From positions 1,736,001 to 1,800,000 of the forward strand of contig NZ_JACHDS010000001.1 in the NCBI RefSeq assembly GCF_014201195.1: 64,000 bases of DNA, written 5' to 3'. A program made the position numbers and the translations under genes. Positions 46,626-58,527 of the stretch are shown piece by piece. Each line of letters opens with the position of its first letter. The first letter of the stretch is position 1. Under the pieces are notes generated by a model, which worked only from the letters and a program-made list of their open reading frames with translations, had not been told where the DNA came from and ran no database searches. This stretch comes from Nocardiopsis mwathae (GTDB lineage: Bacteria; Actinomycetota; Actinomycetes; Streptosporangiales; Streptosporangiaceae).

Positions 46626-47306
46626 ATGACCCACCATCCGCCGCCCGTGGAGCCCCCGGGCGGGGACAGCCCCGGGCAGCCGCCCGAGGGCTCCGCCCCG
46701 TACCCCGACGGCGCCCCCGGGGGGCCGGCGCAGCCGCCCCGGCTGACGCCGTGGGGAAAGATCATCGGTTTCGGCTGCGTCGTGGCCGTGCTGCTCGCCC
46801 TTCTCGTGGCGGGGTGCGTGATCGTGCTGATCAGCCTCGGTGACGACGCCATCGAGCCCGGTATCCAGTACACCCCCGAGGGCCCGCCGCCGACCGGGCC
46901 GACCGAGGGCGCCATCGGCGACTCCGTCTACTCCGGCCACCTGCGGATGACGGTGACCGGTGTGCAGACGGGGGTGCTGAGCGTGGGCGCGGATCCGCTG
47001 CGCAAGGACGCCGAGGGGCAATACATCATCGTCAACGTCACCGTGAAGAACCTCGGTAACACGCCGACGGCGTTCGAGGGCTCGGGCCAGGTGCTCATCG
47101 GGGACGACGGCCGGCGCTACGCCAACGACGGCCAGGCCGAGGTCTACCTCGGCAACGAGGAGACGTTCTTCCGGAAGATCCCGCCGGGTGACACGATCGA
47201 CGGGCGGCTCGTCTACGACATCCCCGAGGATGTCCGGCCGGAGGAACTGGAGATGAAGGACCTGCTCTCGCCGGACCCGCCGGTGGTGGTCGACCTGTCC
47301 CGGTAG
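46626..47306 (+). CDS. DUF4352 domain membrane-anchored protein
   Basis: This 226-residue protein has a Pro/Gly-rich cytoplasmic start (residues 1-40), one helix (46-72, FGCVVAVLLALLVAGCVIVLI) and an extracytoplasmic immunoglobulin-like DUF4352 domain (LRMTVTGVQTGVLS, YIIVNVTVKNLGNTPTAFEG, ETFFRKIPPGDTIDGRLVYDIP). The family is of unknown extracellular role. The start follows GAGGAGAG. It is convergent with the FhuF-like gene. Confidence 0.83.
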   Translation: MTHHPPPVEPPGGDSPGQPPEGSAPYPDGAPGGPAQPPRLTPWGKIIGFGCVVAVLLALLVAGCVIVLISLGDDAIEPGIQYTPEGPPPTGPTEGAIGDSVYSGHLRMTVTGVQTGVLSVGADPLRKDAEGQYIIVNVTVKNLGNTPTAFEGSGQVLIGDDGRRYANDGQAEVYLGNEETFFRKIPPGDTIDGRLVYDIPEDVRPEELEMKDLLSPDPPVVVDLSR

Positions 47307-47331
47307 CCGCCCCGGCGCGCCGCCGCGGTGC

Positions 47332-48210
47332 TCAGGGCGCCATCGCCGGGTTGCGGATCCACCGGCGCAACTCCACCCGGCGGTCGGTGTCGCACTTGAG
47401 CGGGCAGGTGGTGCAGTAGCCGCTCTCCGGGTCGCCCTTGTAATCGAAGCAGCAGGTGCCGCGCACGGCCCAGGTGCCGCGCGGGTGGTTCTCGTAGAAC
47501 GGGAAGAGCCGGGGCCGCGCGCGGGCGGCGGCGCCCGCCGCGATCAGCGCCTCGCCCAGGCGCCCGGCGCGCTCCCAGGCGTGCCGGGCGTCGCGGCCCA
47601 GGAACCGGGCCGGGTTGAGCATGTAGAAGTGGGTGGTGTCCAGGGCCCAGCCCCACAGGGTGCGCCGCCCTACGCGGGTGTGGTCGTGCACGGCATCGAT
47701 GACCGGGGTGAACGTCTGCACCATGTGCTCGGCGGCCATTCGGTCCAGCTCGGCCTCGTCCGCGGCGACGACGGCGTCGGGGTGCCCGGCGGCGGGGTCG
47801 CCGGCGGTGACGGCCACGCGTGTGCCGGTGACGGCGGGGGTGCCGAAGCCGCCGCTCGGCAGCCAGGGGAACCACAGGTGCTCGGGGGCCAGCAGGGGGG
47901 CGCGGCCGGTGAGGTAGAGGCCGGCGGAGACCAGGAACACGGGTTCGCGCAGCAGCACGCGCAGGAAGCGGGTGGCGGCGGGCAGCCGGTGCGCGGGGCC
48001 GTTTCGGGTGGTGAGCCGGTCGAACAGGGGGCCGACATGGCCGTCGGCGGCCATCCGGTCGGCGCGGTACCAGTGTTCGGTGCCGGAGCGGGGGCGCGGG
48101 GAGGCCGCCTGGTCGGGCAGGTCGGCCCGGATGTAGGGCAGCGGCGCGAACTTCAGCGGCGCACAGGCGTCGATCACCGCCTGGAGCGGCGGGACTGGCG
48201 TCATGGTCAT
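47332..48210 (-). CDS. FhuF-like [2Fe-2S] ferric-siderophore reductase
   Basis: This 292-residue protein has the FhuF C-terminal cluster motif GTCCFDYKGDPESGYCTTC, CC-x10-11-C-x2-C, near residues 255-273. The remainder fits the siderophore-iron reductase group (HLWFPWLPSGG). It would reduce Fe(III)-siderophore inside the cell to release iron. An iron box lies about 130 bp upstream, so expression should be derepressed without iron. Confidence 0.86.
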   Translation of the reverse strand: MTMTPVPPLQAVIDACAPLKFAPLPYIRADLPDQAASPRPRSGTEHWYRADRMAADGHVGPLFDRLTTRNGPAHRLPAATRFLRVLLREPVFLVSAGLYLTGRAPLLAPEHLWFPWLPSGGFGTPAVTGTRVAVTAGDPAAGHPDAVVAADEAELDRMAAEHMVQTFTPVIDAVHDHTRVGRRTLWGWALDTTHFYMLNPARFLGRDARHAWERAGRLGEALIAAGAAARARPRLFPFYENHPRGTWAVRGTCCFDYKGDPESGYCTTCPLKCDTDRRVELRRWIRNPAMAP

Positions 48211-48667
48211 GCTGAAGGCTCGACCTTTCTGCGCGGGTGCCCTGCGGAACGCGCCCCTGGGGGCGGACTCCGAAGCGTCCTTCGGGACGCGGAACGGTGG
48301 GCCGACCGGCCACTGCGGTCAGGTTCGACCCCCGCCATCCCTTAGCTGAGGCTACCCTAACGATGCCGGGGGCGGCAATGAATCCGCTCCTTCCGGCGAT
48401 GCGTGTCCGCCGTGGTCAGGCGGGCCGGGAGTGCCGACCGCGGCGTCGGTGTCGAATCGCATTCGGTAATTCGGACAAGCGGTTGTATATTTCTCATTCG
48501 GGTTCGTAGTTCACTCCTGGTGTCGGTGAGCCCCGTGCGGTCGCACCGCACGGTCGGCGCCCGGGGCTGCGTTCACCGCCACTCCGCACCACCGGGCCCG
48601 ACCGGCGCCGCCGAATGCCGCCGTCATGCCGATCCGTCCCGTGGTCGGGGCCAGCCACCCGCGACCA
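48211..48667. other. Divergent regulatory region, 457 bp
   Basis: It contains the iron box at 48342-48360 and, further right, an AT-richer patch near 48470-48510 that may be the peptide-transporter promoter. No gene is seen. Confidence 0.45.
48342..48360. promoter_or_regulatory. Iron box (IdeR/DmdR-type)
   Basis: TTAGCTGAGGCTACCCTAA matches 16 of 19 positions of the IdeR consensus TTAGGTTAGGCTAACCTAA. It serves the minus-strand FhuF-like gene. Confidence 0.78.
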
Positions 48668-50179
48668 ATGGGGAAGGGAAGGCGTAATCCGTTGCGCAAG
48701 CACCCCAGAGGGTTGATCACCCTCGCCGGTACCGAACTCAACGAGCGGGCGTCCTTCTACGGGATGCGCGCCATTCTCGTCCTCTTTCTGGCGGCCACGG
48801 TCGCGGAAGGCGGCATGGGACTGGGGACCGGCACCGCCACCGCCATCGTCGGCCTCTACATGGCGCTGAGCTACTTCACCACCCTGCCCGGCGGGTGGAT
48901 CGCCGACCGGGTCCTCGGCGAGCGGCGCACCGTCCTCGTCGGCGGCGTCATCATCATGCTCGGCCACGTCTCCCTGGCCGTGCAGGTCGGCGACGTGTTC
49001 GTGTGGGCCGGGCTGATCCTGGTCTGCCTGGGCACCGGCTTCCTCAAGCCCAACGTCACCTCGCTGGTCGGCAAGCTCTACACCGACGACACCGACGCCC
49101 GCCGCGACGCCGGCTACTCGCTCTACTACATGGGCATCAACATCGGCTCGCTGATCGGGACACTGGTCATCGGCTACATCGGCGAGAAGGTCTCCTGGCA
49201 CATCGGCTTCAGCGTCGCCGCCGTCGGCATGGCACTGGGCCTCACCCAGTACGTGCTGGGGCAGCGCAGCCTCGGCGAGGCGGGCAAGGAACCCGGGCAG
49301 CCGCTGACCGCCCCGGAGCGCACCAGGATGATCCGCTGGGTCGCGATCGGGGCCGCGGTGGTGTGCGCGGCCATCGCGCTGTCCGTCGCCACCGGGACCT
49401 TCAGCATCGACCGGGTCACCTACGTACTCACGGCGCTGGCGATCGTCGTCCCGATCCTCTACTTCGTCAACATGTTGGTGGTCAAGCGCGACCGGATCGT
49501 CGGTGAGGAGCGCACCAAGCTCAAGGCGTTCCTGTGGCTCTTCATCGCCTCCGCCGTATTCTGGATGATCTTCGACCAGGCGGCCGGACCGCTGACGCTG
49601 TTCGCCAAGAACGACGTCGACCTGCACCTCCTCGGCTTCGAAGTCCCCGCCGGGTGGACGCAGGCCGCCAACCCGCTCATGGTCATCCTCTTCTCCGGTG
49701 TGTTCGCGCTGGTGTGGACGAAGCTCGGCAACCGGGTCAGCACCGCGGCGAAGTTCAGCGTCGCGCTGGTCGTGGCCGGCCTGTCCTTCGTCCTGATGGC
49801 CGCGGCCACGGCCGCCACCGACGGAGGCACCGTCAAGGTGAGCCTGCTCTGGCTGGTCGGCGTCTACCTGCTGCTGACCATCGCCGAGCTGTGCCTCAGC
49901 CCGGTCGGCCTGTCGATGACCTCCAAGCTCGCCCCCAAGGCCTACGCCGGGCAGATGATGGGACTGTTCTTCCTGTCCATCGCCGCCGGCGACGCCGTCG
50001 GTGCCCAGGTCAGCCGGCTGCAGCCGGCCATGGGCGGCACCTACTACCTGGTGCTGGGCCTGCTGGCCATCGTCTGCGGCATCGCGCTGAGCCTGTTCGT
50101 CGGCAAGCTGCGCGCGCTCATGGGTGAGCACCGCGACACCGATACGGCGGCCGACGCGGCAGCGGAGCAGCGGGCCTGA
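48668..50179 (+). CDS. POT/PTR2 family oligopeptide:H+ symporter
   Basis: This 503-residue transporter has about 14 helices, as bacterial POT proteins do. Its first helix carries TELNERASFYGMRAIL, the ExxER-type proton motif, and the second PTR2 signature is present as GIGTGFLKPNVTSLVGKLY-like sequence (CLGTGFLKPNV). It takes up di- and tripeptides with protons. ATG 48668 is chosen. The preceding 14 codons are unrelated. It runs convergently with the pentapeptide gene across only 7 bp. Confidence 0.9.
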   Translation: MGKGRRNPLRKHPRGLITLAGTELNERASFYGMRAILVLFLAATVAEGGMGLGTGTATAIVGLYMALSYFTTLPGGWIADRVLGERRTVLVGGVIIMLGHVSLAVQVGDVFVWAGLILVCLGTGFLKPNVTSLVGKLYTDDTDARRDAGYSLYYMGINIGSLIGTLVIGYIGEKVSWHIGFSVAAVGMALGLTQYVLGQRSLGEAGKEPGQPLTAPERTRMIRWVAIGAAVVCAAIALSVATGTFSIDRVTYVLTALAIVVPILYFVNMLVVKRDRIVGEERTKLKAFLWLFIASAVFWMIFDQAAGPLTLFAKNDVDLHLLGFEVPAGWTQAANPLMVILFSGVFALVWTKLGNRVSTAAKFSVALVVAGLSFVLMAAATAATDGGTVKVSLLWLVGVYLLLTIAELCLSPVGLSMTSKLAPKAYAGQMMGLFFLSIAAGDAVGAQVSRLQPAMGGTYYLVLGLLAIVCGIALSLFVGKLRALMGEHRDTDTAADAAAEQRA

Positions 50180-50186
50180 GCCCCGG

Positions 50187-51614
50187 CTAGGGCTGGGAGC
50201 CCTCCCCGGGGCGCTCCTCCTCGACGTCCGCGGTGATCGCCGAGCGCAGCTGCGTCTCGGTCAGGCCGCGCACCGTCGACAGGTCGACCCCCCACAGGTC
50301 GGCGTCCTTCAGGTCGGCGCCCACCAGGTTCGCGTGGTCGAGGTTGGCCCCCACCAGGTCCGCGCGCTGCAGCTGGGCGCCGACCAGGTCGGCGCGCTGC
50401 AGGTGGGCGTCGACGAGGTTGGCCTGCTCCAGGTGCGCGCCCACCAGGTAGGCGTCCTCCAGGTGGGCGCCGCCGAGGTTCGCCCGCTCCAGGTGCGCGC
50501 CGCGCAGGTTGGCGTGCTGCAGGTGCGCGCCCAGCTGGTTGGCGTCCTCCAGGTGGGCGTCCACCAGGTAGGCGTGTTCGAGGTGGGTGTCGACCAGGTT
50601 GGCGCGCTGCAGGTGGGCGCGTCTGAGGTTGGCGTGTTCCAGGTGGGTCCCCACCAGGTAGGCGCGCTCCAGGTGCGCCCCGAGCAGCCGCGCGTGTTCG
50701 AGGTGGGCGCCCACGAGGTTGGCGTCTTCGAGGTGCGCCCCCCACAGGTCCGCCCGGCGCAGGTGGGCGCCGCCCAGGTAGGCGTGGCGCAGGTCGGCGC
50801 CCCACAGGTCGGCGTGCTGCAGGTGGGCGCGTCTGAGGTTGGCGTGCTGCAGGTGGGCGCGTCTGAGGTTGGCGTCCTCCAGGTGGGCGCCGCGCAGGTC
50901 GGCGTGCTCCAGGTGGGCGCCGCGCAGGTCGACCTGTTCGAGGTGGGCGCCGCGCAGGTCCGCGCCGCGCAGGTTGGTCGTGCCCAGGTCGACCCGGTTC
51001 TGCTCGGGGCGCCGGGGGCGCCGGGCGATCACCGTCAGCGCCGTCTGGATGTCGGTCGCCGGGCGCTTGCGCGTGTGCGGGTCGTCGGGCGGGTCGAGTG
51101 TGCCGGTGGGCGGGTGCATCCACCGCCCCCGGTCCCGTGCGGACGCCCACACCTCGTCGGCCGGGGCGTTCTCCCGGATGAAGGCCGACAGGACCTCGAC
51201 GACCGTCGAGTGGTCCCGCTCCGACTCCCGCATGATGTGCTCCAGTGCGTACATCCCCCCGATGCGCTCGGCGAGCTTGTCGGAGGCGAGGTTGCCGATC
51301 GCCGCCGTGTAGCGCTCGGTGATCTGCCCCCGTCGGTTGAGCCGGTAGTTGACCGCCGCGAACGCCAGTGCCGACAGCGCCGCGGTGCCGCCCACCGACT
51401 GCAGCACGGTCATCCGCACGTGGTTGAGGGCAAGCGCCTGGTCCTTGTCGGGAAGCCGGTGCACGACCGGTCCGGCCACCCAGTGCGTGAACGGTCCCAG
51501 CAGCATCGCCAGCATGAACATGATCACCGCCGCACCGACCGGGGCCGCCAGCCAGACCCCGTACCGCATGGTCCACGTCGGCTCCGCCTCGCCCCGACCC
51601 AGAGTCCTGCCCAT
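50187..51614 (-). CDS. Membrane-anchored pentapeptide-repeat protein
   Basis: This 475-residue protein has two N-terminal helices (about 20-42, 65-88), a linker with YTAAIGNLASDKLAERIGGMYALEHIM (a common link in such proteins) and about 46 A(D/N/H)LxX repeats at residues 208-445. They should fold into a right-handed quadrilateral beta-helix on the cytoplasmic side. The DNA repeats every 15 bp as variants of CAGGTGGGCGCCGCG. In other bacteria pentapeptide helices mimic DNA (Qnr, MfpA) or serve as scaffolds; the membrane anchor here suggests the latter. It has no operon partner. Confidence 0.9.
   Translation of the reverse strand: MGRTLGRGEAEPTWTMRYGVWLAAPVGAAVIMFMLAMLLGPFTHWVAGPVVHRLPDKDQALALNHVRMTVLQSVGGTAALSALAFAAVNYRLNRRGQITERYTAAIGNLASDKLAERIGGMYALEHIMRESERDHSTVVEVLSAFIRENAPADEVWASARDRGRWMHPPTGTLDPPDDPHTRKRPATDIQTALTVIARRPRRPEQNRVDLGTTNLRGADLRGAHLEQVDLRGAHLEHADLRGAHLEDANLRRAHLQHANLRRAHLQHADLWGADLRHAYLGGAHLRRADLWGAHLEDANLVGAHLEHARLLGAHLERAYLVGTHLEHANLRRAHLQRANLVDTHLEHAYLVDAHLEDANQLGAHLQHANLRGAHLERANLGGAHLEDAYLVGAHLEQANLVDAHLQRADLVGAQLQRADLVGANLDHANLVGADLKDADLWGVDLSTVRGLTETQLRSAITADVEEERPGEGSQP
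50280..50990. repeat. 15-bp-period coding repeat of the pentapeptide gene
   Basis: About 46 near-identical 15-bp units read AGGTGGGCGCC... on the plus strand. This is a coding microsatellite, prone to slip expansion in steps of five residues. Confidence 0.85.
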
Positions 51615-51845
51615 GCTGTAATTCCAGCATCACCGAGCGTGCGGCGTCGGGGAAACGGTCGCCATCGTCCGGGTGGCCGCGGACCGCCGGGGCATTGGTC
51701 GTCAATGGACACAACGCATCCGAGCTGATCGGACCGGGAAAACCCCTGCCGACCAGGCCAGGAGTGGCCACATGCCCACAGTCCGCAATGATCCGGAACC
51801 GGCGAATCCGGTCGCCTTAATCCGGGGGCGGCGGGATGCGCTCCC

Positions 51846-53024
51846 TCACCGCAGCAGCACGAGGTGGTGGCGGACCAGGGCGCGCAGGATCTCGGCGGTG
51901 ATGGGCATCGGGGTGCCGGAGCGTTCGGCCAGGTCGGCGGCCGACAGCTCGCGGTCCTCGGCGAGGCGGGCAAGGACGGGTTCGGCCACGGCGGGCAGGC
52001 GGTAGCGGCGGCCGGCGACCGTGGCGGTCACGCTCGACCCGTCGCGCTCCAGGTGCGGGGCGAGCAGGGGGACGAACTCCACGCGGGTGTCGGGGGCGGG
52101 CACGGCGCCGTCCACCGCCCAGGCCAGGGAGAAGGAGCGGCGGCGCGGGAAGCGGGCGTCGCGCTCCCGCAGGAAGGCGTCGACGTCGAGGTCCTCGGCT
52201 AGCTCGGCCAGGCCCCGGACCAGCTCGTGGTGGTGTTTGCGCCGTTCGTCGGGCGTGGCGAACCGCGGTAGGTCGCGGCGCGCGAACTCCGATTCGTGCA
52301 GCCGGTCCAGCAGCGCGCGGGCCCAGTCGACGCCGGTGGCGCGGGTGAACCCGAACGTCAGGTGCATGCTGACGTCGCCGGTGCCGCGGACCGTGTGCCA
52401 CCATCCGCGCGGCACGTGCAGCACCTGCCCGGGGCGCAGCACCCCCTCCCACACCACGCCGTCGGGCGGGGTGTGGGAGTGGTCGGCGTCGACCTTCATC
52501 GGGTTGCGGCGGCTGCCCTGGCCGTGGACCTGCCAGGACTTGGTCCCGGCGAGCTGCACGACGAAGGTGTCGTGGTCGTCCCAGTGGGTGTCGAACCCGT
52601 GGGAGTCGCCCCAGATCAAGTACAGGTTGGCCTGGGCGCGCTCGTGCACGAGGCGCATGAGGTCGTCGGCGGCGGCCCGGACGGGCGGGTGCAGCCGGTC
52701 GACCCCGTCCAGCACCAGACTGGCGCCCTCGCGCAGCTGCCGGTAGAGGTCCTCGGGCCGGATGACCGAGCGGGCGCTGCCGGACGCCTCGCCGGGCTCG
52801 GTGTAGCGGTCGGCGGGGACCGGCCGCCCCCGCTTGTGCAGCCGCAGCCGGGGTGGTTCGAGTTCCCGGGTGCGCAGGATCTCGTCGAGGTCGGCGAAGG
52901 TGAGCAGGGAGCGCACGGTGTCGGCCCCCAGGTCGGTGCGGATGACGTCCGACGAGAGCCGGGCGGAGAGCAGGTCGTCGCCGAGGGCGGCGCGCAGCGT
53001 CTCGGTGAACAGGCGGTCGGTCAC
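51846..53024 (-). CDS. JmjC/cupin Fe(II)/2-oxoglutarate oxygenase, RiPP-associated candidate
   Basis: This 392-residue protein has the double-stranded beta-helix of the JmjC (cupin_8/YcfD-like) group: metal ligands His147 and Asp149 in FDTHWDDHDTFVVQL and His210 in HVPRGWWHTV, with LAGTKSWQVHG between. A C-terminal winged-helix-like part ends LVRHHLVLLR, as in ribosomal-protein hydroxylases. Members hydroxylate Arg, His or Asp side chains. GTG 53024 has AGAGAGG seven bases upstream. It follows a 35-residue peptide gene and an S9 peptidase, so that peptide is the likely substrate. Confidence 0.85.
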   Translation of the reverse strand: MTDRLFTETLRAALGDDLLSARLSSDVIRTDLGADTVRSLLTFADLDEILRTRELEPPRLRLHKRGRPVPADRYTEPGEASGSARSVIRPEDLYRQLREGASLVLDGVDRLHPPVRAAADDLMRLVHERAQANLYLIWGDSHGFDTHWDDHDTFVVQLAGTKSWQVHGQGSRRNPMKVDADHSHTPPDGVVWEGVLRPGQVLHVPRGWWHTVRGTGDVSMHLTFGFTRATGVDWARALLDRLHESEFARRDLPRFATPDERRKHHHELVRGLAELAEDLDVDAFLRERDARFPRRRSFSLAWAVDGAVPAPDTRVEFVPLLAPHLERDGSSVTATVAGRRYRLPAVAEPVLARLAEDRELSAADLAERSGTPMPITAEILRALVRHHLVLLR

Positions 53025-53124
53025 GGTCGGCCTCTCTGCGTTCTCCACGGGTACGGGGACCGCCGGGGAGCGGGGGCTTCCCCGGCGGCCGGCCGCCGAT
53101 GGGTGGGTCACTGCATCGGATCGT

Positions 53125-53140
53125 GTGTCCGCGCGGACAC
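53125..53140 (-). terminator. Hairpin between peptide and oxygenase genes
   Basis: GTGTCCGCGCGGACAC is a perfect 16-bp palindrome just 3' of the peptide gene. Such partial terminators raise precursor over enzyme transcript level in RiPP operons. Confidence 0.5.
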
Positions 53141-53150
53141 GGGGTGGGGA

Positions 53151-53258
53151 TCAGATGAAGTCGGAGCTGGAGTCCGTGCCGTCACTGTCGCCGCCCGCGG
53201 TGATGTCCCGCGAGGTGACCTGGGTCAGGTCCTCGACCTCGACCTCGATCGGGTCCAT
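53151..53258 (-). CDS. Putative RiPP precursor peptide, 35 residues
   Basis: The ATG at 53258 has AGAGG about 10 nt upstream. The acidic N-terminal part (IEVEVEDLTQVT) looks like a leader, and the C-terminal part (GGDSDGTDSSSDFI) is rich in Ser, Asp, Gly and Thr and ends in Phe-Ile. A GG pair could be a leader-core boundary. No Cys is present, so Cys-based lanthionine rings are impossible. It lies 38 nt behind an S9 peptidase gene and 126 nt ahead of a JmjC oxygenase gene, on the same strand. Its identity as a RiPP is inference from this context. Confidence 0.62.
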   Translation of the reverse strand: MDPIEVEVEDLTQVTSRDITAGGDSDGTDSSSDFI

Positions 53259-53296
53259 GTGCGTTCACCTCTCTTCCTCTGGGGAGTAGGCCGCCC

Positions 53297-55462
53297 TCAC
53301 ACGGATCGGATCCGCGGGGACAACCCCGTTCGCGCGGCCGCGAACGCGTGCGCGTCGGCCGCGAGTTCGATGGCGCTGGTCACCGCGCGCGGTCCGTGCC
53401 CGACGTCGCGCTCGTAGCGGAGCAGCACAGGGCGGTCGGGGGAGGTGGCGGCGCTCAGCGCCGCGCACATCTTGCGCGGGTGTGCGGCGTCGGTCCGGGT
53501 GTCGCCGTGGAAGCCGGTGAGCAGCACGGCCGGGTAGCGGCAGCCGTGGCTGCGCAGCGCCCGGTGGTAGGGGGAGTAGGACATCAGTGCGGCGAAGTCG
53601 ACGGGGTCGGCCGTGGTGCCGAACTCCCGGGTCCACAGCCGTCCGAGCCCCAGCTGCTCGAAGCGGGCCATGTCGGCCAGCGGTGCCGAGGCGATGACGG
53701 CCGCGCACAGGTCGGGGCGCATGGTGGCGGCGGCGAGGACGAGCAGCCCGCCGGCCGAGCCGCCCGACAGGCACAGCTGCCCGCGCGAGCAGTACCCGCA
53801 GTCGACGAGCGTGTCGGCCGCGGCGACGAGGTCCTGGACGGAGCGGATCTTGTTGCGCCGCGCGCCGCGCATGTGCCAGTCCTGCCCGGCGTCGCCGCCG
53901 CCGCGCACGTGGGCGACGGCGTAGCGGCCCCCGGCCAGCAGCCAGGACAGCACGGTCGCGCTGAACCCGAACCGGCGGGCGCGGCCGAAGCCGCCGTAGG
54001 CGTGCAGGATCGTGGGGCCGGGCTCGTCGAAGGGGCGGGCGGAGAAGAGGGTGACGGGGACGCTCGTGCCGTCGGCCGAGCGGCACCGGATGGTGCGGCG
54101 GCGGGGGCGGCTGCCGCGGCTGCGGCCGATCGGGACGGGCGTGCGCGGGGAAGGCCCGGAACGGGTGGTCGAGGCCGGGCGCTGCGCGGTGTCGTCCGGC
54201 GCGGGGACGGTCCAGGGCCGGGGGCGGCGCGCCCCGTGGTCGAGCACCAGCACCTTCTGCTGGGTGGCGACGTCGGCGTAGCAGAAGTAGGCGGTGTCGG
54301 GGGCGGCGTCGGCCTCCAGCCGGGTCACCATCCCCTCCCCGGGCAGCTCGACGCGGCGCAGGCGGCGGCCGTCGTGCGCGTCGTGGGCGGTGAGCTCGCT
54401 GATGCCCAGGAGGTTGCGGGTGACCAGGAGTTCGAGGGCGTCCGGTGTGCCGGTCACGGTGAACGCGTCCAGGGTCGCACCGGGGTCCTCGGGGACGATC
54501 TCGCGCCACCGCTCGGGGGCGGGGTCGCGGGGGTCGGCGGCGCAGATACGGCGGCGCGGGGCCTGGAGCGTGGTGCGCAGATAGAGGCGGCCGTCGGGGC
54601 CGACGTCGGCCTCGGAGTCGATGTCCTCACCCACGTGGACCGGCCGCAGCCGCGGTGCCCGTGCGCGGCCGCCGGAGAGGTCGGCGATCCACAGGTCGGT
54701 GCGGTGCCCGGTGCCGTGGTTCTCGGTGAGCAGCAGCCACCTGCCCCTCACCAGCCGCACGCCGGGGACGGCGCACGGGCCGGCGGTGGAGTGGACGAGG
54801 ATGTCGGGGACGCGCGGCACGGCCAGGACGCGGTGCAGCCACACGCCGGGGCGGCCGCCGCGGGAGTCGCGGCGCACGTAGTAGAAGGCGGCGTGGTGGG
54901 GGGCGGGCAGCCAGGCCACCTGGGAGTAGCGCACGCCGCGGATCGGTTCCTCGACGGGCAGCCCGCTGTCGGCGGACAGGACGCGCAGCGCGCCGCGCTC
55001 GGTGCCGCCGGTGGAGGTCTGGACGGCCACCAGGCGGCCGTCGGGGCTGGGCTCCCAGGCGTCCAGAGTGGTCCGGCCGCTGGGGTCGTGGACGGCCGGG
55101 TCGAAGACCACGCGCTCCCGCCCGTCGCGGATCGTGACGAGGCGGGGGTGGTCGGCGTCGGCGTCGCGGCGGGTGGTGAAGGCGAGGCCGCCCCGGTGGA
55201 CGGGCGGGGACCACAGTTCGGTGGCGACCAGGCGGCGGATCTGCCGGGCCAGGCGATCGCGCATCGGCCACGTGGCGGTGGCGCGTGCGAACTCCCGGGA
55301 CCGGTCGGCGAGCCACCCGCGGGTGGCGGGGGAGTCGGGGTCCTCCAGCCACCGGTAGGGGTCGGCGACGGGCCGTCCGTGCAGGGTGTCCACGACCGAC
55401 ACGAGGTCGCCCCGCCCCGGCGCCCTGGCGAGGCCCTGACGGGGTGACGCCGTGCTCACCAT
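53297..55462 (-). CDS. Prolyl oligopeptidase (S9A), RiPP-associated candidate
   Basis: This 721-residue protein has the S9A layout: N-terminal VDTLHGRPVADPYRWLEDPDSP, a seven-bladed propeller (residues 80-430), and an alpha/beta-hydrolase domain with the nucleophile SGGSAGG (about 565), an Asp region GFHGDTRTD and catalytic His in DVGHGP (about 688). There is no signal peptide. A low-complexity Arg/Pro/Ser stretch joins propeller and hydrolase. S9 enzymes remove leaders from class III lanthipeptides (FlaP-type, established), which supports a maturation role for the downstream peptide. The start at ATG 55462 matches the family beginning. Confidence 0.88.
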   Translation of the reverse strand: MVSTASPRQGLARAPGRGDLVSVVDTLHGRPVADPYRWLEDPDSPATRGWLADRSREFARATATWPMRDRLARQIRRLVATELWSPPVHRGGLAFTTRRDADADHPRLVTIRDGRERVVFDPAVHDPSGRTTLDAWEPSPDGRLVAVQTSTGGTERGALRVLSADSGLPVEEPIRGVRYSQVAWLPAPHHAAFYYVRRDSRGGRPGVWLHRVLAVPRVPDILVHSTAGPCAVPGVRLVRGRWLLLTENHGTGHRTDLWIADLSGGRARAPRLRPVHVGEDIDSEADVGPDGRLYLRTTLQAPRRRICAADPRDPAPERWREIVPEDPGATLDAFTVTGTPDALELLVTRNLLGISELTAHDAHDGRRLRRVELPGEGMVTRLEADAAPDTAYFCYADVATQQKVLVLDHGARRPRPWTVPAPDDTAQRPASTTRSGPSPRTPVPIGRSRGSRPRRRTIRCRSADGTSVPVTLFSARPFDEPGPTILHAYGGFGRARRFGFSATVLSWLLAGGRYAVAHVRGGGDAGQDWHMRGARRNKIRSVQDLVAAADTLVDCGYCSRGQLCLSGGSAGGLLVLAAATMRPDLCAAVIASAPLADMARFEQLGLGRLWTREFGTTADPVDFAALMSYSPYHRALRSHGCRYPAVLLTGFHGDTRTDAAHPRKMCAALSAATSPDRPVLLRYERDVGHGPRAVTSAIELAADAHAFAAARTGLSPRIRSV

Positions 55463-55999
55463 GGAAGGCCCGGGGAGCGGGCGGGGGCACGGGAACAGCC
55501 GCGGTGTCGGTTACGCACGCCCACATCCTTCAAGCGCTCGGTAACGGCGGTCAAGTAGCAGCTGACTGGCGGGAGGTAACAGGAAGCTGTCGGAGAAGTT
55601 ATATTACAAATCGGAAATATCTCCTTTGAACTGCGAGAACGCGCGGTCTGTGCGGCGCTTTCCTCGGTGTCCGGTGCGACTTCCAGGATGGAATGTCCTC
55701 ACTCTTCGGAGCCATGCTTGTGGACGCCGGGCCCCGTCCACCGCGGACGTCCCGGTGTTCCCGGATGCGCTCGGCGGTGATCGGACGGACGGGGCCGGGC
55801 GGGGCCGGGCGGGCGGCGCCGGTCGATTCTGGTGGATTTTCGGCTATGCACCTTTCGCAACCTTTATTGGGCCTTGGGCGTCTCACCGGTGAACGGGTGC
55901 GTGAAATCACGCGAAATCATGCGAAATCACCACGGCGGGCGCGGCAGCCGAACAGGCGACACGTGCACCGGCGGGAACTCGAAAACGGGGAGCGCGGAC
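55463..55999. other. Divergent regulatory region, 537 bp
   Basis: AT-rich sequence at 55590-55625 (TTATATTACAAATCGG) is the likely promoter zone for the peptidase operon. Three 10-bp direct repeats occur at 55901-55930. I find no supported gene. Confidence 0.5.
55901..55930. repeat. Three 10-bp direct repeats before a secreted-protein gene
   Basis: GTGAAATCAC, GCGAAATCAT and GCGAAATCAC follow each other without gap, one helical turn apart. It looks like a cooperative regulator site, 70-100 bp upstream of the ATG at 56000. Confidence 0.55.
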
Positions 56000-57097
56000 A
56001 TGACCACAACGGCACGCAGGGCGGCGCGCGCGGCCCTCGCATCGGCGGTGGCGCTGGGCGTCGCCGCGGCGGGCTCGGGCACGGCGGCCAACGCCGAAAC
56101 GGAGTGGCGGATTCTGCACGGCGGCCAGAGCCTCGGCGGGTCCTTCGGCGCGGTCGCGGCCGCCGACGCCGACCACATCTGGGCGTTCGGCGACGACCAG
56201 GCCCAGTCGGACGGCGCGACCTGGGTGTACGGCTGGGACGGGCGGCAGTGGACCCGGGAGGACCTGCCCGAGCAGTGGAGCCTGGTCCCCGAGGTCGCCG
56301 ACGCCTCCGCCCCCGACAACGTCTGGGCCGCCGGGCGGGGCGCGGACCGGCAGGCGGGAACGCTGCGCTACGACGGCGAGGAATGGCGCACCTTCGACCT
56401 GGACCCGGCGCTGTGGCCCAACGACATCGCGGCGGTGGCCCCCGACGACGTCTGGCTGCTGGGTGGAATTCCCGGCGACCCGCCACGTGCCGCGCGCTTC
56501 GACGGCGAGATCTGGCGCGACTACTCCGCACCCCGGGTGGGCGGGGCGCTGTCCGCCCTGGACTCCGGTGACATCATCGCGGTCGGAGAGGCCGACGACC
56601 GCCCCGCCGTCGACCGGTGGAACGGTGAGGAATGGGTGCCCATGGCCGCGCCCGAGGTGGACGTGCCCCCGGGGGAGTCCGGTGCGGCCCTCACCGACGT
56701 CCTCGCCCGCGCCGACGACGACATCTGGGCGGTCGGCCACATCCACTACAAGGACCCCGACGACGTGGCCCACCGGAAGCCGATCCTCGCCCACTGGGAC
56801 GGAACGGAGTGGGACACGACCGTCGAGGAGAGCGACACCGGCTACGACGTGGTCGTCGACGACGGGGCCGGCGGCGTGTGGATCCGCGAGAGCCACTGGA
56901 ACCCCACCTACCTCCACCGGGCGGCCGACGGCGCCGTCACCCGCCACACCGTGGACGGCGGCGAGTACGACCTGGCCGTCTTCGGAATGGCCCACGTCCC
57001 GGGCACCCACCGGGTCGTGGCGGCCGGCACCGCCTTCGAGAAGGGCGACCCCGACGAGTTCCACGACTACGGCGTCATCCTCGGCCACGGGTTCTAG
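56000..57097 (+). CDS. Secreted beta-propeller-like protein
   Basis: This 365-residue protein has a signal peptide (1-32, AAGSGTAANAET). The mature protein repeats a blade with the consensus (A/P)D(D/H/N)(I/V)WA(F/V/A)G: ADHIWAFG, PDNVWAAG, PDDVWLLG, DDDIWAVG. Between them are WDG.(Q/E)W segments (YGWDGRQWTRED, RWNGEEWVPM, HWDGTEWDTT). This fits a 6- or 7-bladed extracellular propeller, as in kelch- or Asp-box-like proteins. Its ligand is unknown. ATG 56000 follows GGGGAG. It may be regulated at the 10-bp repeats upstream. Confidence 0.78.
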   Translation: MTTTARRAARAALASAVALGVAAAGSGTAANAETEWRILHGGQSLGGSFGAVAAADADHIWAFGDDQAQSDGATWVYGWDGRQWTREDLPEQWSLVPEVADASAPDNVWAAGRGADRQAGTLRYDGEEWRTFDLDPALWPNDIAAVAPDDVWLLGGIPGDPPRAARFDGEIWRDYSAPRVGGALSALDSGDIIAVGEADDRPAVDRWNGEEWVPMAAPEVDVPPGESGAALTDVLARADDDIWAVGHIHYKDPDDVAHRKPILAHWDGTEWDTTVEESDTGYDVVVDDGAGGVWIRESHWNPTYLHRAADGAVTRHTVDGGEYDLAVFGMAHVPGTHRVVAAGTAFEKGDPDEFHDYGVILGHGF

Positions 57098-57348
57098 CCG
57101 AACCGGCCACCGGGGTCGGCGCCGCGACGGGGCGGCCGGACACCCGGCCGAGGCGTGCGGTCACGGCACGGCGGTCGGGCATCACCCGTGGCGAGGGCGG
57201 GCACGGGCGACCGCAGCACGGCCAACGCGACCGACGGCGACCGCCGCACCGGGTGGAACGGCCGGAGGTCGCGACCCGCGCCGACTTCGGTCGATGCCCT
57301 GGCCGCGGCACGGCGGCGCGGGCCGGGGCGAGGGTAGCGTCGTTACCC

Positions 57349-58527
57349 ATGGAAGGTCCCGATCCCCGGCCCGCCCACCGGCGCAGACTGCGCGACCGGT
57401 GCGTCGACGCCGCACTGTTCGCCTGCGCGGTGCTCTTCGGGCTGCTGGTCCTCCTGGAACGCAGCGGCCCGCCCCCGTGGCCGCAGTGGCTGGTGGCCGT
57501 CGAGTACGCCCTCGGCGCCCTGAGCTGCCTGGCCCTGTGGCTGCGGCGCCGGTGGCCGGTCGCCCTCGCGGTCGTGCTCGTCGTCCTGGCCAGCGCCATC
57601 GAACTGGTGGCCGGAGCCGCGCTGGTGGCGCTGTTCACCGTCGCGGTGCACCGGCCCTGGCGGACCACCGCCGCCGTCGCCGGGCTGTCCGTCGCCCTCG
57701 GCGCCGTCGTCGTCGCGCTGCACTCCGGCCCGGTCATGCCGCGCGCCCTCGACGAGCTGCTGGGCACCAGCATCCTGCTGGGGCTGGTCGGCTGGGGCCT
57801 GTTCATCCGCCACCGGCGCCAGCTCGTGCTGTCCCTGCGCGACCGCGCCGAGCGCGCCGAGACCGAGGCCCGCCTCCGCGCGGAACAGGCGCAGCTGCTG
57901 GCCCGCGAGCAGATCGCCCGCGAGATGCACGACATCCTGGGCCACCGCCTCTCCCTGCTCAGCGTGCACGCCGGTGCGCTGGAGTTCCGGCCCGACGCCC
58001 GCCCCGAGGACATCGCCCGCACCGCCGGGGTCATCCGGGAGAGCGCCCACCAGGCCCTCCAGGACCTGCGCGAGGTCATCGGCGTGCTGCGCGCCCCCAC
58101 CGAGGAGCTGCCCCAGCCCACCTTCGCCGACGTACGCGGGCTCGTCGCCGAGTCCTCCCGCGCCGGGACACCGGTCGAGCTCGACGAGGACATCACCGGA
58201 ACCGTCCCCGACACCGTCGGCCGCACCGCCTACCGCATCGTCCAGGAGGCACTCACCAACGCCCGCAAGCACGCGCCCGGCGCCCCCGTCCATGTCGCCC
58301 TCGCGGGACGGCCCGGGGAGGGGCTGACCGTCGAGGTCCGCAATCCCCTTCGCGGCGGCGGTCCACGGGCGGGCACGCCCGTGCCCGCCGGGGCGCCCGC
58401 CGCGAAGGCCGGCCACGGCCTGCTCGGACTGGCCGAGCGCGCCGCCATCGTCGGCGGGCGCCTGCGCCACGGCCCCACGACCTCCGGCGACTTCCGGGTC
58501 GAGGCCTGGCTACCCTGGCCCGCATGA
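57349..58527 (+). CDS. NarL-type sensor histidine kinase
   Basis: This 392-residue kinase has four to six helices (residues 18-155) with almost no outside domain, then HisKA_3 with REMHDILGHRLSLLSVHAGAL (phospho-His in MHD motif, near residue 191) and an HATPase domain: VQEALTNARKHAPG and GHGLLGLAERA. It phosphorylates the LuxR-type regulator encoded next, with which it overlaps by ATGA. ATG 57349 is chosen. It is a typical membrane-stress sensor design. Confidence 0.9.
   Translation: MEGPDPRPAHRRRLRDRCVDAALFACAVLFGLLVLLERSGPPPWPQWLVAVEYALGALSCLALWLRRRWPVALAVVLVVLASAIELVAGAALVALFTVAVHRPWRTTAAVAGLSVALGAVVVALHSGPVMPRALDELLGTSILLGLVGWGLFIRHRRQLVLSLRDRAERAETEARLRAEQAQLLAREQIAREMHDILGHRLSLLSVHAGALEFRPDARPEDIARTAGVIRESAHQALQDLREVIGVLRAPTEELPQPTFADVRGLVAESSRAGTPVELDEDITGTVPDTVGRTAYRIVQEALTNARKHAPGAPVHVALAGRPGEGLTVEVRNPLRGGGPRAGTPVPAGAPAAKAGHGLLGLAERAAIVGGRLRHGPTTSGDFRVEAWLPWPA

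Follow-up and report, generated by a model that had tools for sequence, protein, structure and literature searches.

Ribosomal oxygenases (ROX) such as NO66, MINA53 and YcfD/RoxA share a JmjC domain with HxD...H ligands, a helical dimerisation region and a winged helix, and one of them, RoxA, is an arginine hydroxylase by annotation. In class III lanthipeptide loci, a prolyl-oligopeptidase-type gene stands beside a short precursor gene and encodes an S9 leader peptidase. JmjC enzymes are also described in pathways for ribosomally synthesized and post-translationally modified peptides (RiPPs): according to the available parts of two reports, BipG/BpmG and the related cupin-like PbsQ hydroxylate ornithine in RiPP precursors (PMC12707348, PMC12257519), with the biphenomycin enzymes BipG/BpmG acting on ornithine after an arginase and alongside a multinuclear non-heme iron-dependent oxidase (MNIO) and a B12 radical S-adenosylmethionine (SAM) enzyme. 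Similarly, a passage of PMC12710340 reports folds like the RiPP recognition element (RRE) fused to JmjC (PF08007) in fish and algae, with bacterial homologues in RiPP-like contexts. Methanobactins and bufferins, finally, are ribosomal peptides proposed to handle metals, made (in the text portions available) by MNIO enzymes and tied to copper or metal stress. Here we analyze a stretch of 64,000 nucleotides from Nocardiopsis mwathae (contig NZ_JACHDS010000001.1, positions 1,736,001 to 1,800,000; hereafter “the window”), in which an S9 peptidase gene, a 35-codon open reading frame (ORF) and a JmjC oxygenase gene follow one another on the minus strand, and which a model working from the letters alone had proposed as a possible new RiPP type (the original prediction).

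Compared with these systems, the window locus combines familiar parts in a distinct way. Its JmjC protein is 15-22% identical to NO66, MINA53 and YcfD/RoxA, but here a short peptide and a peptidase are encoded beside it. As in the biphenomycin clusters, a JmjC-type oxygenase is proposed to work on a RiPP precursor, whereas no biphenomycin-type arginase, MNIO or B12 radical SAM enzyme was found among the nine window proteins scanned (46626 to 58527). The prolyl-oligopeptidase-type gene beside a short precursor recalls class III lanthipeptides, yet the peptide has no Cys and the same nine proteins include no LanKC, which sets the locus apart from that class; radical SAM and YcaO proteins are likewise missing from them, so that the original statement on all three enzyme types holds. 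Unlike methanobactins and bufferins, the locus has a JmjC enzyme, a Cys-free peptide and a link to iron. The general idea of JmjC enzymes in RiPP pathways was partly anticipated by PMC12710340; a precursor family, a peptidase, FhuF and a link to iron are not named in the passage concerned. Our literature search, to which most subscription journals were closed, returned no JmjC-S9-FhuF peptide family, no single paper joining JmjC, prolyl oligopeptidase and RiPP, and no title or abstract with a term for a ribosomally encoded siderophore counterpart. Overall, we conclude that the window locus is real, conserved and linked, and that it is a RiPP-type variant with an unusual iron connection.

A conserved peptide gene between a peptidase and an oxygenase

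The three genes lie in the window as follows:

53297..55462, minus strand: S9A prolyl-oligopeptidase-type peptidase, proposed leader peptidase (PF02897 and PF00326 matches)
53151..53258, minus strand: 35-residue peptide gene, proposed precursor (leader strand IEVEVEDL; R17 at leader Glu9+8; core TSRDITAGGDSDGTDSSSDFI)
51846..53024, minus strand: JmjC (PF08007) oxygenase with C-terminal winged helix

Their order and strand are as originally described, and the 35-codon ORF does have a good ribosome site, with AGAGAGGTG ahead of its ATG. For the JmjC gene, the likely start is the GTG at 53024-53022, preceded by GCAGAGAGG, and a longer ORF reaching 53111 is not favoured. The peptide gene and the PF08007 gene each occur once in this genome.

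The original prediction had staked itself on the short ORF being kept beside homologues of the oxygenase, and this proved to be the case: the peptide gene precedes JmjC in all 30 loci of one sample (L001-L030) and in 52 of 53 of another (L031-L083), two samples that overlap in species, the sole miss being L064, whose contig starts 78 bp ahead of the JmjC match. A 21-residue core of this kind is present in 47 of 51 loci; across these 47, mean core identity is 93%, the ratio of non-synonymous to synonymous polymorphism (pN/pS) is 0.13, and 16 of the 21 positions are invariant (TSRD.TAG.D.DG.D.SSDFI). Neither enzyme is as conserved as this core (61-84% for JmjC within Nocardiopsidaceae, about 56-84% over matched segments for S9). 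Judged by these sequence comparisons, the 35-codon ORF is a real gene under purifying selection. The window peptide, which is Cys-free as had been noted, has no match in NCBIfam or Pfam, and among relatives' peptides (eight searched against NCBIfam, two against Pfam) the only match was that of a class S peptide in NCBIfam, far below the cut-off. When the leader/core division was examined, a conserved, apparently strand-forming N-terminal part and a fixed Arg spacing emerged. The locus has two features expected of a RiPP locus, a gene-encoded conserved peptide and, directly downstream of it, a gene for a modifying enzyme, here a JmjC protein with intact ligands.

The JmjC protein matches PF08007 with 82 bits, and His146, Asp148, His209 and Lys161 (numbered from the residue after the GTG start) are invariant in 24 aligned homologues, which bears out the intact His-Asp-His ligands seen earlier. 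Its AlphaFold2 model (mean pLDDT, the predicted local distance difference test, 84.6) aligns end-to-end with NO66 (4ccn; Z 23.9, root-mean-square deviation (rmsd) 9.1, 365 residues aligned), the large rmsd suggesting that the domains are turned against each other, and also with MINA53 (4bxf; Z 22.3) and YcfD (4liv; Z 18.9); a Foldseek search was run as well. The predicted structure is a complete ribosomal-oxygenase fold with JmjC domain, dimerisation helices and winged helix, the modelled C-terminus, a candidate RRE, consisting of strands at 313-343 and helices at 344-356, 361-368 and 372-384.

The S9 protein (PF02897, 167 bits; PF00326, 128 bits) aligns over its full length with 2bkl, its best solved relative (E 5.8e-91). 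Its GGSAGG, GDTR and GHG stretches fall on the corresponding 2bkl motifs, which we take to be the catalytic ones, and with an N-terminal propeller and an S9 catalytic domain it is a member of S9A. In 49 of 53 loci an S9 orthologue precedes the peptide gene, the exceptions being L064 and three Pseudonocardia loci; the peptidase belongs to the unit in Nocardiopsidaceae, as originally described. Many relatives have a further prolyl oligopeptidase, about 45% identical, elsewhere in the genome, and we regard the S9 gene beside the peptide as a dedicated copy.

A linked FhuF-like gene with an iron box

The original prediction of a compact three-gene locus was right as far as the three genes go and overlooked a linked fourth gene and its iron box, which lie beyond the stretch it considered:

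47332..48210, minus strand: FhuF-like [2Fe-2S] protein, linked fourth gene (FhuF_C, PF11575)
48342..48360, minus strand: DtxR/DmdR-type iron box TTAGGGTAGCCTCAGCTAA, 131 nt upstream of the FhuF-like gene

Like the ferric-siderophore reductase FhuF of Escherichia coli, the window protein has an FhuF_C domain (27.8 bits, cut-off 20.5), and E. coli FhuF (7qp5) is its nearest fold, being the first Foldseek match of the model (E 3.5e-3; Z 13.8, rmsd 3.8, 228 residues aligned), tied with the siderophore synthetase IucA (5jm8), the C-terminal part of the model being of low confidence; the window gene has an iron box upstream. Four Cys are invariant in 18 homologues, spaced CC-x11-C-x2-C, one residue longer than the motif CC-x10-C-x2-C given in the available part of PMC11965169. 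The protein thus has the fold and the C-terminal [2Fe-2S] domain of FhuF; because it scores 29 bits against TIGR03951, short of the equivalog cut-off of 63.85, we call it FhuF-like only. No solved relative of the family was found by sequence at E up to 1.

An FhuF-like match was present in 34 of 36 genomes searched. In three of these the FhuF-like and JmjC genes are on different contigs; in the 31 genomes with both on one contig they are always within 11.2 kb of each other (31/31), and in 14 within 500 bp, with a gap ranging from 0.13 to 11.2 kb and with varying genes in between. In Thermobifida fusca (L047), the FhuF gene comes immediately after JmjC. One genome (G063) has a second FhuF-like gene of higher identity (61% vs. 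56%) far from JmjC. In the window, a peptide transporter of the POT type (48626-50179) and a pentapeptide-repeat protein (50187-51614) occupy the interval, and relatives have other genes there. A role in anti-phage defence was rejected, four proteins having no match in PADLOC.

When up to 4 mismatches to TTAGGTTAGGCTAACCTAA are allowed, a DtxR/DmdR-type iron box precedes the FhuF-like gene by 59-131 nt in all 46 window-set loci that have this gene; the 8 of 54 loci that lack the gene are mostly cut by contig ends, together with the three Pseudonocardia loci. In 49 shuffled loci, which keep base composition only, the best match had 6 mismatches. The degenerate form of the site has three matches at one mismatch or fewer in the window genome, this box being the exact one, and Zur- and Fur-type boxes gave no consistent signal. 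For comparison, in Streptomyces coelicolor a protein with the FhuF [2Fe-2S] motif, SCO6158, is encoded divergently from SCO6159, and the latter stands behind a predicted DmdR1 site (PMC12161575).

Peptide classes across actinobacteria

To place the window in a wider family, we compared actinobacterial JmjC loci drawn by similarity or taxonomy (60 regions hand-picked from the many matches listed), with genes in relatives called by a purpose-made ORF picker. Five loci that repeat earlier ones (L203, L204, L205, L207 and L208) were dropped before tree building; L064 and L102 are cut by contig ends, and the JmjC gene of L095 is broken in the assembly. The search for co-occurrence of short ORFs with JmjC, suggested with the original prediction, found a precursor-like one directly ahead of the JmjC gene in 66 of 85 sampled rows, in classes N (10 rows), P (3), S (5), A (15), X (2), B (18) and M (13). 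In an 86-row JmjC tree, the window falls in Nocardiopsidaceae clade N (100/98), its nearest named rows being Nocardiopsidaceae, and N is joined first by Pseudonocardia P (100/95), next by class S (97/93) and after that by class B (99/97). Peptide class tracks this tree (10 label changes vs. 54.7 in shuffles), an agreement that speaks of clustering and not of function. E. coli RoxA, the sole ROX of known substrate in the tree, lies outside the peptide-linked clade on a branch of length 3.08, its placement being unsure. As to the prospect raised beforehand, that the JmjC protein might group firmly with ribosomal-protein hydroxylases encoded without such peptides, the protein does have the complete ROX fold, yet it stands among homologues that are peptide-linked in 66 of 85 rows.

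Counted from the charged residue that closes a hydrophobic strand, an offset of eight residues leads to an Arg in 46 of the 47 peptides compared from classes N, P, A, X and B (class N being represented by ten distinct peptides, and one of the 15 class A peptides omitted), the next commonest offset being found in 16 of 47; in the one miss the pattern caught an earlier SVE, and by eye the peptide fits. In these five classes an Asp/Gly/Ser tail follows the fixed Arg. Class S peptides have Arg at offsets 7 and 9 and lack such a tail, and all 13 class M loci (L175-L187) have tandem-repeat precursors directly upstream of JmjC (e.g., EGPADGGAAGTPGVHDGGADGGA; EGPADGGAxGxPGVHDGGADGGA and similar), which look like multi-core precursors.

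Several of these loci have features of their own. The class S loci (L085-L088, L098) encode peptides of type EFPEVEVKVSPVAERARATFAKTHNR, with Pfam matches to radical SAM in L086 and L088 and to arginase in L086 and L087. In class A loci L089-L094 and L100, JmjC stands beside an aldo/keto reductase, a RibD_C protein and an SLOG/helix-turn-helix protein, a different neighbourhood with a like peptide. In L192, a short Cys-containing ORF ending DPDPSDDCWIVCNPNYCY lies upstream of a distant JmjC gene beside an ABC (ATP-binding cassette) transporter.

Iron-related genes recur in other lineages. At the distant locus L095, the peptide and JmjC genes stand in one row with an iron box and an FhuF-like gene; the Cys motif is visible in the FhuF-like protein, which Pfam does not match at 1e-5. 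Of the 13 class M genomes, 12 have a Suc_Fer-type gene no more than 1 kb from JmjC, some tandem-repeat-precursor loci having it directly after JmjC, and all three Pseudonocardia loci have one upstream of the peptide; iron boxes occur at or near Suc_Fer in L079, L161, L163 and L166, and in L075 a Peripla_BP_2 protein follows JmjC. Separately, a region of L101 (597-7083) has JmjC beside an ornithine monooxygenase, a formyltransferase, two FecCD genes and an iron box, with no clear peptide.

Promoter-like element and hairpin

The remaining features of the locus are:

55549..55554, minus strand: TTGACC, conserved -35-like element upstream of S9 (47/48 upstream regions)
55456..55518, minus strand: 20-codon ORF with GTG start, its stop overlapping the S9 start
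53125..53140: 16-bp palindrome, not the conserved element
53060..53088, minus strand: GC-rich hairpin between the peptide and JmjC genes, 10-bp stem, read by eye; counterpart of the relatives' hairpin

All but one of the 48 loci have TTGACC ahead of S9. Many Nocardiopsis loci open the S9 frame right behind this element, possibly leaderless, and read the stretch that follows in frame with S9; in the window the 20-codon ORF occupies this stretch. Within L031-L083, a second conserved block, AAACCTNNCC, precedes TTGACC, with an inverted GGNNAGG seen by eye in several loci, and is perhaps the site of some regulator. The 16-bp palindrome picked out between peptide and oxygenase genes does exist, but we set it aside as a key element, relatives conserving a nearby hairpin instead: a GC-rich hairpin follows the peptide stop, with a stem of at least 8 bp in 47 of 53 loci and a mean z of -2.7. 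In the window, the 70 nt past the peptide stop fold no better than shuffles (z -0.03), the counterpart having been recognised by eye.

A candidate pathway and its alternatives

Taken together, we find it somewhat probable that the locus encodes a small RiPP-type pathway whose precursor is oxidised by JmjC on Arg or Asp and trimmed by S9, giving a product used in iron handling. The genes for S9, the 35-residue precursor and JmjC would form one unit behind the conserved promoter-like element, and the hairpin after the peptide gene may keep the peptide transcript in excess. The strand-like leader would dock on the JmjC winged helix as a built-in recognition element; the JmjC domain would then oxidise this peptide's core, most likely by hydroxylation of R17 (leader Glu+8) or of at least one Asp of the D-x-D-G-x-D tail, and the S9 enzyme, of a type known for short substrates, would remove the leader. 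The acidic, ligand-rich product may join iron handling together with the iron-regulated FhuF-like protein, as the linkage and the iron box suggest. The ornithine hydroxylation by BipG/BpmG and PbsQ provides a precedent for this pathway, at least from what the accessible texts describe, and the 66 of 85 rows with an upstream ORF, whose class follows the tree, speak for it too, while FhuF within 11.2 kb (31/31), the iron box (46/46) and Suc_Fer in class M and Pseudonocardia argue for the iron role.

As for the modified residue, the original prediction pointed to the Asp/Ser-rich end, which the fixed Arg spacing (46/47) makes only one of two candidate sites. For the window clade we lean slightly towards Arg, because RoxA is an arginine hydroxylase and BipG acts on ornithine (PMC12707348, in the part available). 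Neither residue can be the universal site, since class M precursors have no Arg at any conserved place and the five class S peptides have no Asp-rich tail motif. Asp beta-hydroxylation is described in other RiPPs through other enzymes (PMC13097080, PMC13060819, both as available in part). The earlier RiPP interpretation is partly supported. What we observe are the genes and their conservation, the predicted folds, the linkage and the iron box; from these we infer hydroxylation at one of the candidate sites, S9 cleavage and the role in iron handling.

Several observations weigh against this pathway as a whole. No S9 gene stands beside the three Pseudonocardia loci, so that S9 is not universal, and 19 of the 85 rows have no recognisable peptide (L097, L099, L101, L102 at a contig end, L156, L171, L173, L188-L193, L202, L209-L213). 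On the iron side, a scan allowing up to 4 mismatches gave no iron box for the S9 promoters of the window set and none in any part of the 13 class M loci, Suc_Fer lies within 2.3 kb of JmjC in only 5 of 10 class B genomes tested (out of 18 class B loci), and class A loci, by gene clustering, have neither FhuF-like nor Suc_Fer genes and carry instead the aldo/keto reductase and a protein without Pfam match. In addition, no exporter is consistently linked, and the FhuF linkage could be inherited synteny.

One alternative is a pathway of RiPP type that has no iron role. Its product would be a signal, an antibiotic or a cofactor-like peptide, and FhuF would be a stable neighbour that does separate work. 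The position of the iron box at FhuF and not at the S9 promoter, the varying genes between JmjC and FhuF, and the class A loci all fit such a product, but it would leave unexplained why FhuF stays within 11.2 kb in 31 of 31 testable genomes despite the wide range of gaps, why the distant L095 has the same elements in a row, and why another [2Fe-2S]-type protein, Suc_Fer, takes the place of FhuF in class M and Pseudonocardia; we consider it somewhat unlikely. At the opposite end, the iron role could take the specific form of a metallophore or cofactor, with JmjC making the Asp-rich 21-residue core a ferric ligand (e.g., through beta-hydroxy-Asp), S9 releasing it and the FhuF-like protein (Suc_Fer elsewhere) reducing the iron, which we offer as a tentative possibility; the same logic may run through several actinobacterial precursor classes, including the tandem-repeat precursors with Suc_Fer directly after JmjC.

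The remaining alternatives concern the peptide and its enzyme. The complete ROX fold predicted by the model, with NO66, MINA53 and YcfD as nearest structures, and the lack of any other PF08007 gene in the genome would suit a ribosomal-protein hydroxylase, the peptide then being a small regulator or cofactor and not a maturing substrate. We hold this to be improbable, given that peptide tails differ widely between classes, tandem repeats included, as expected of substrates, that 121 of 200 sampled genomes have no JmjC match at all, unlike what a housekeeping role would predict, and that JmjC relatives in RiPP clusters act on peptides in the accounts available in part. More doubtful still is that JmjC forms a cross-link or another oxidation, such as a macrocycle, in place of a simple hydroxyl: nearly every core residue is invariant, and 2-oxoglutarate dioxygenases reportedly catalyse macrocyclisation in RiPPs, whereas the characterised JmjC proteins of RiPP pathways add 16 Da, as far as the accessible texts go. 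Finally, spurious ORFs abound in G+C-rich DNA, yet we reject a chance origin of the 35-codon ORF, to which we give next to no weight, because of its conservation beside JmjC and its purifying selection (pN/pS as above).

If the peptide is modified, these loci would represent a widespread and very compact RiPP-type family, in which a JmjC protein with its own winged helix is the sole evident tailoring enzyme, and would connect peptide natural products with the ribosomal oxygenases. Should the link to iron prove functional, the product would be a ribosomally encoded counterpart of siderophores.

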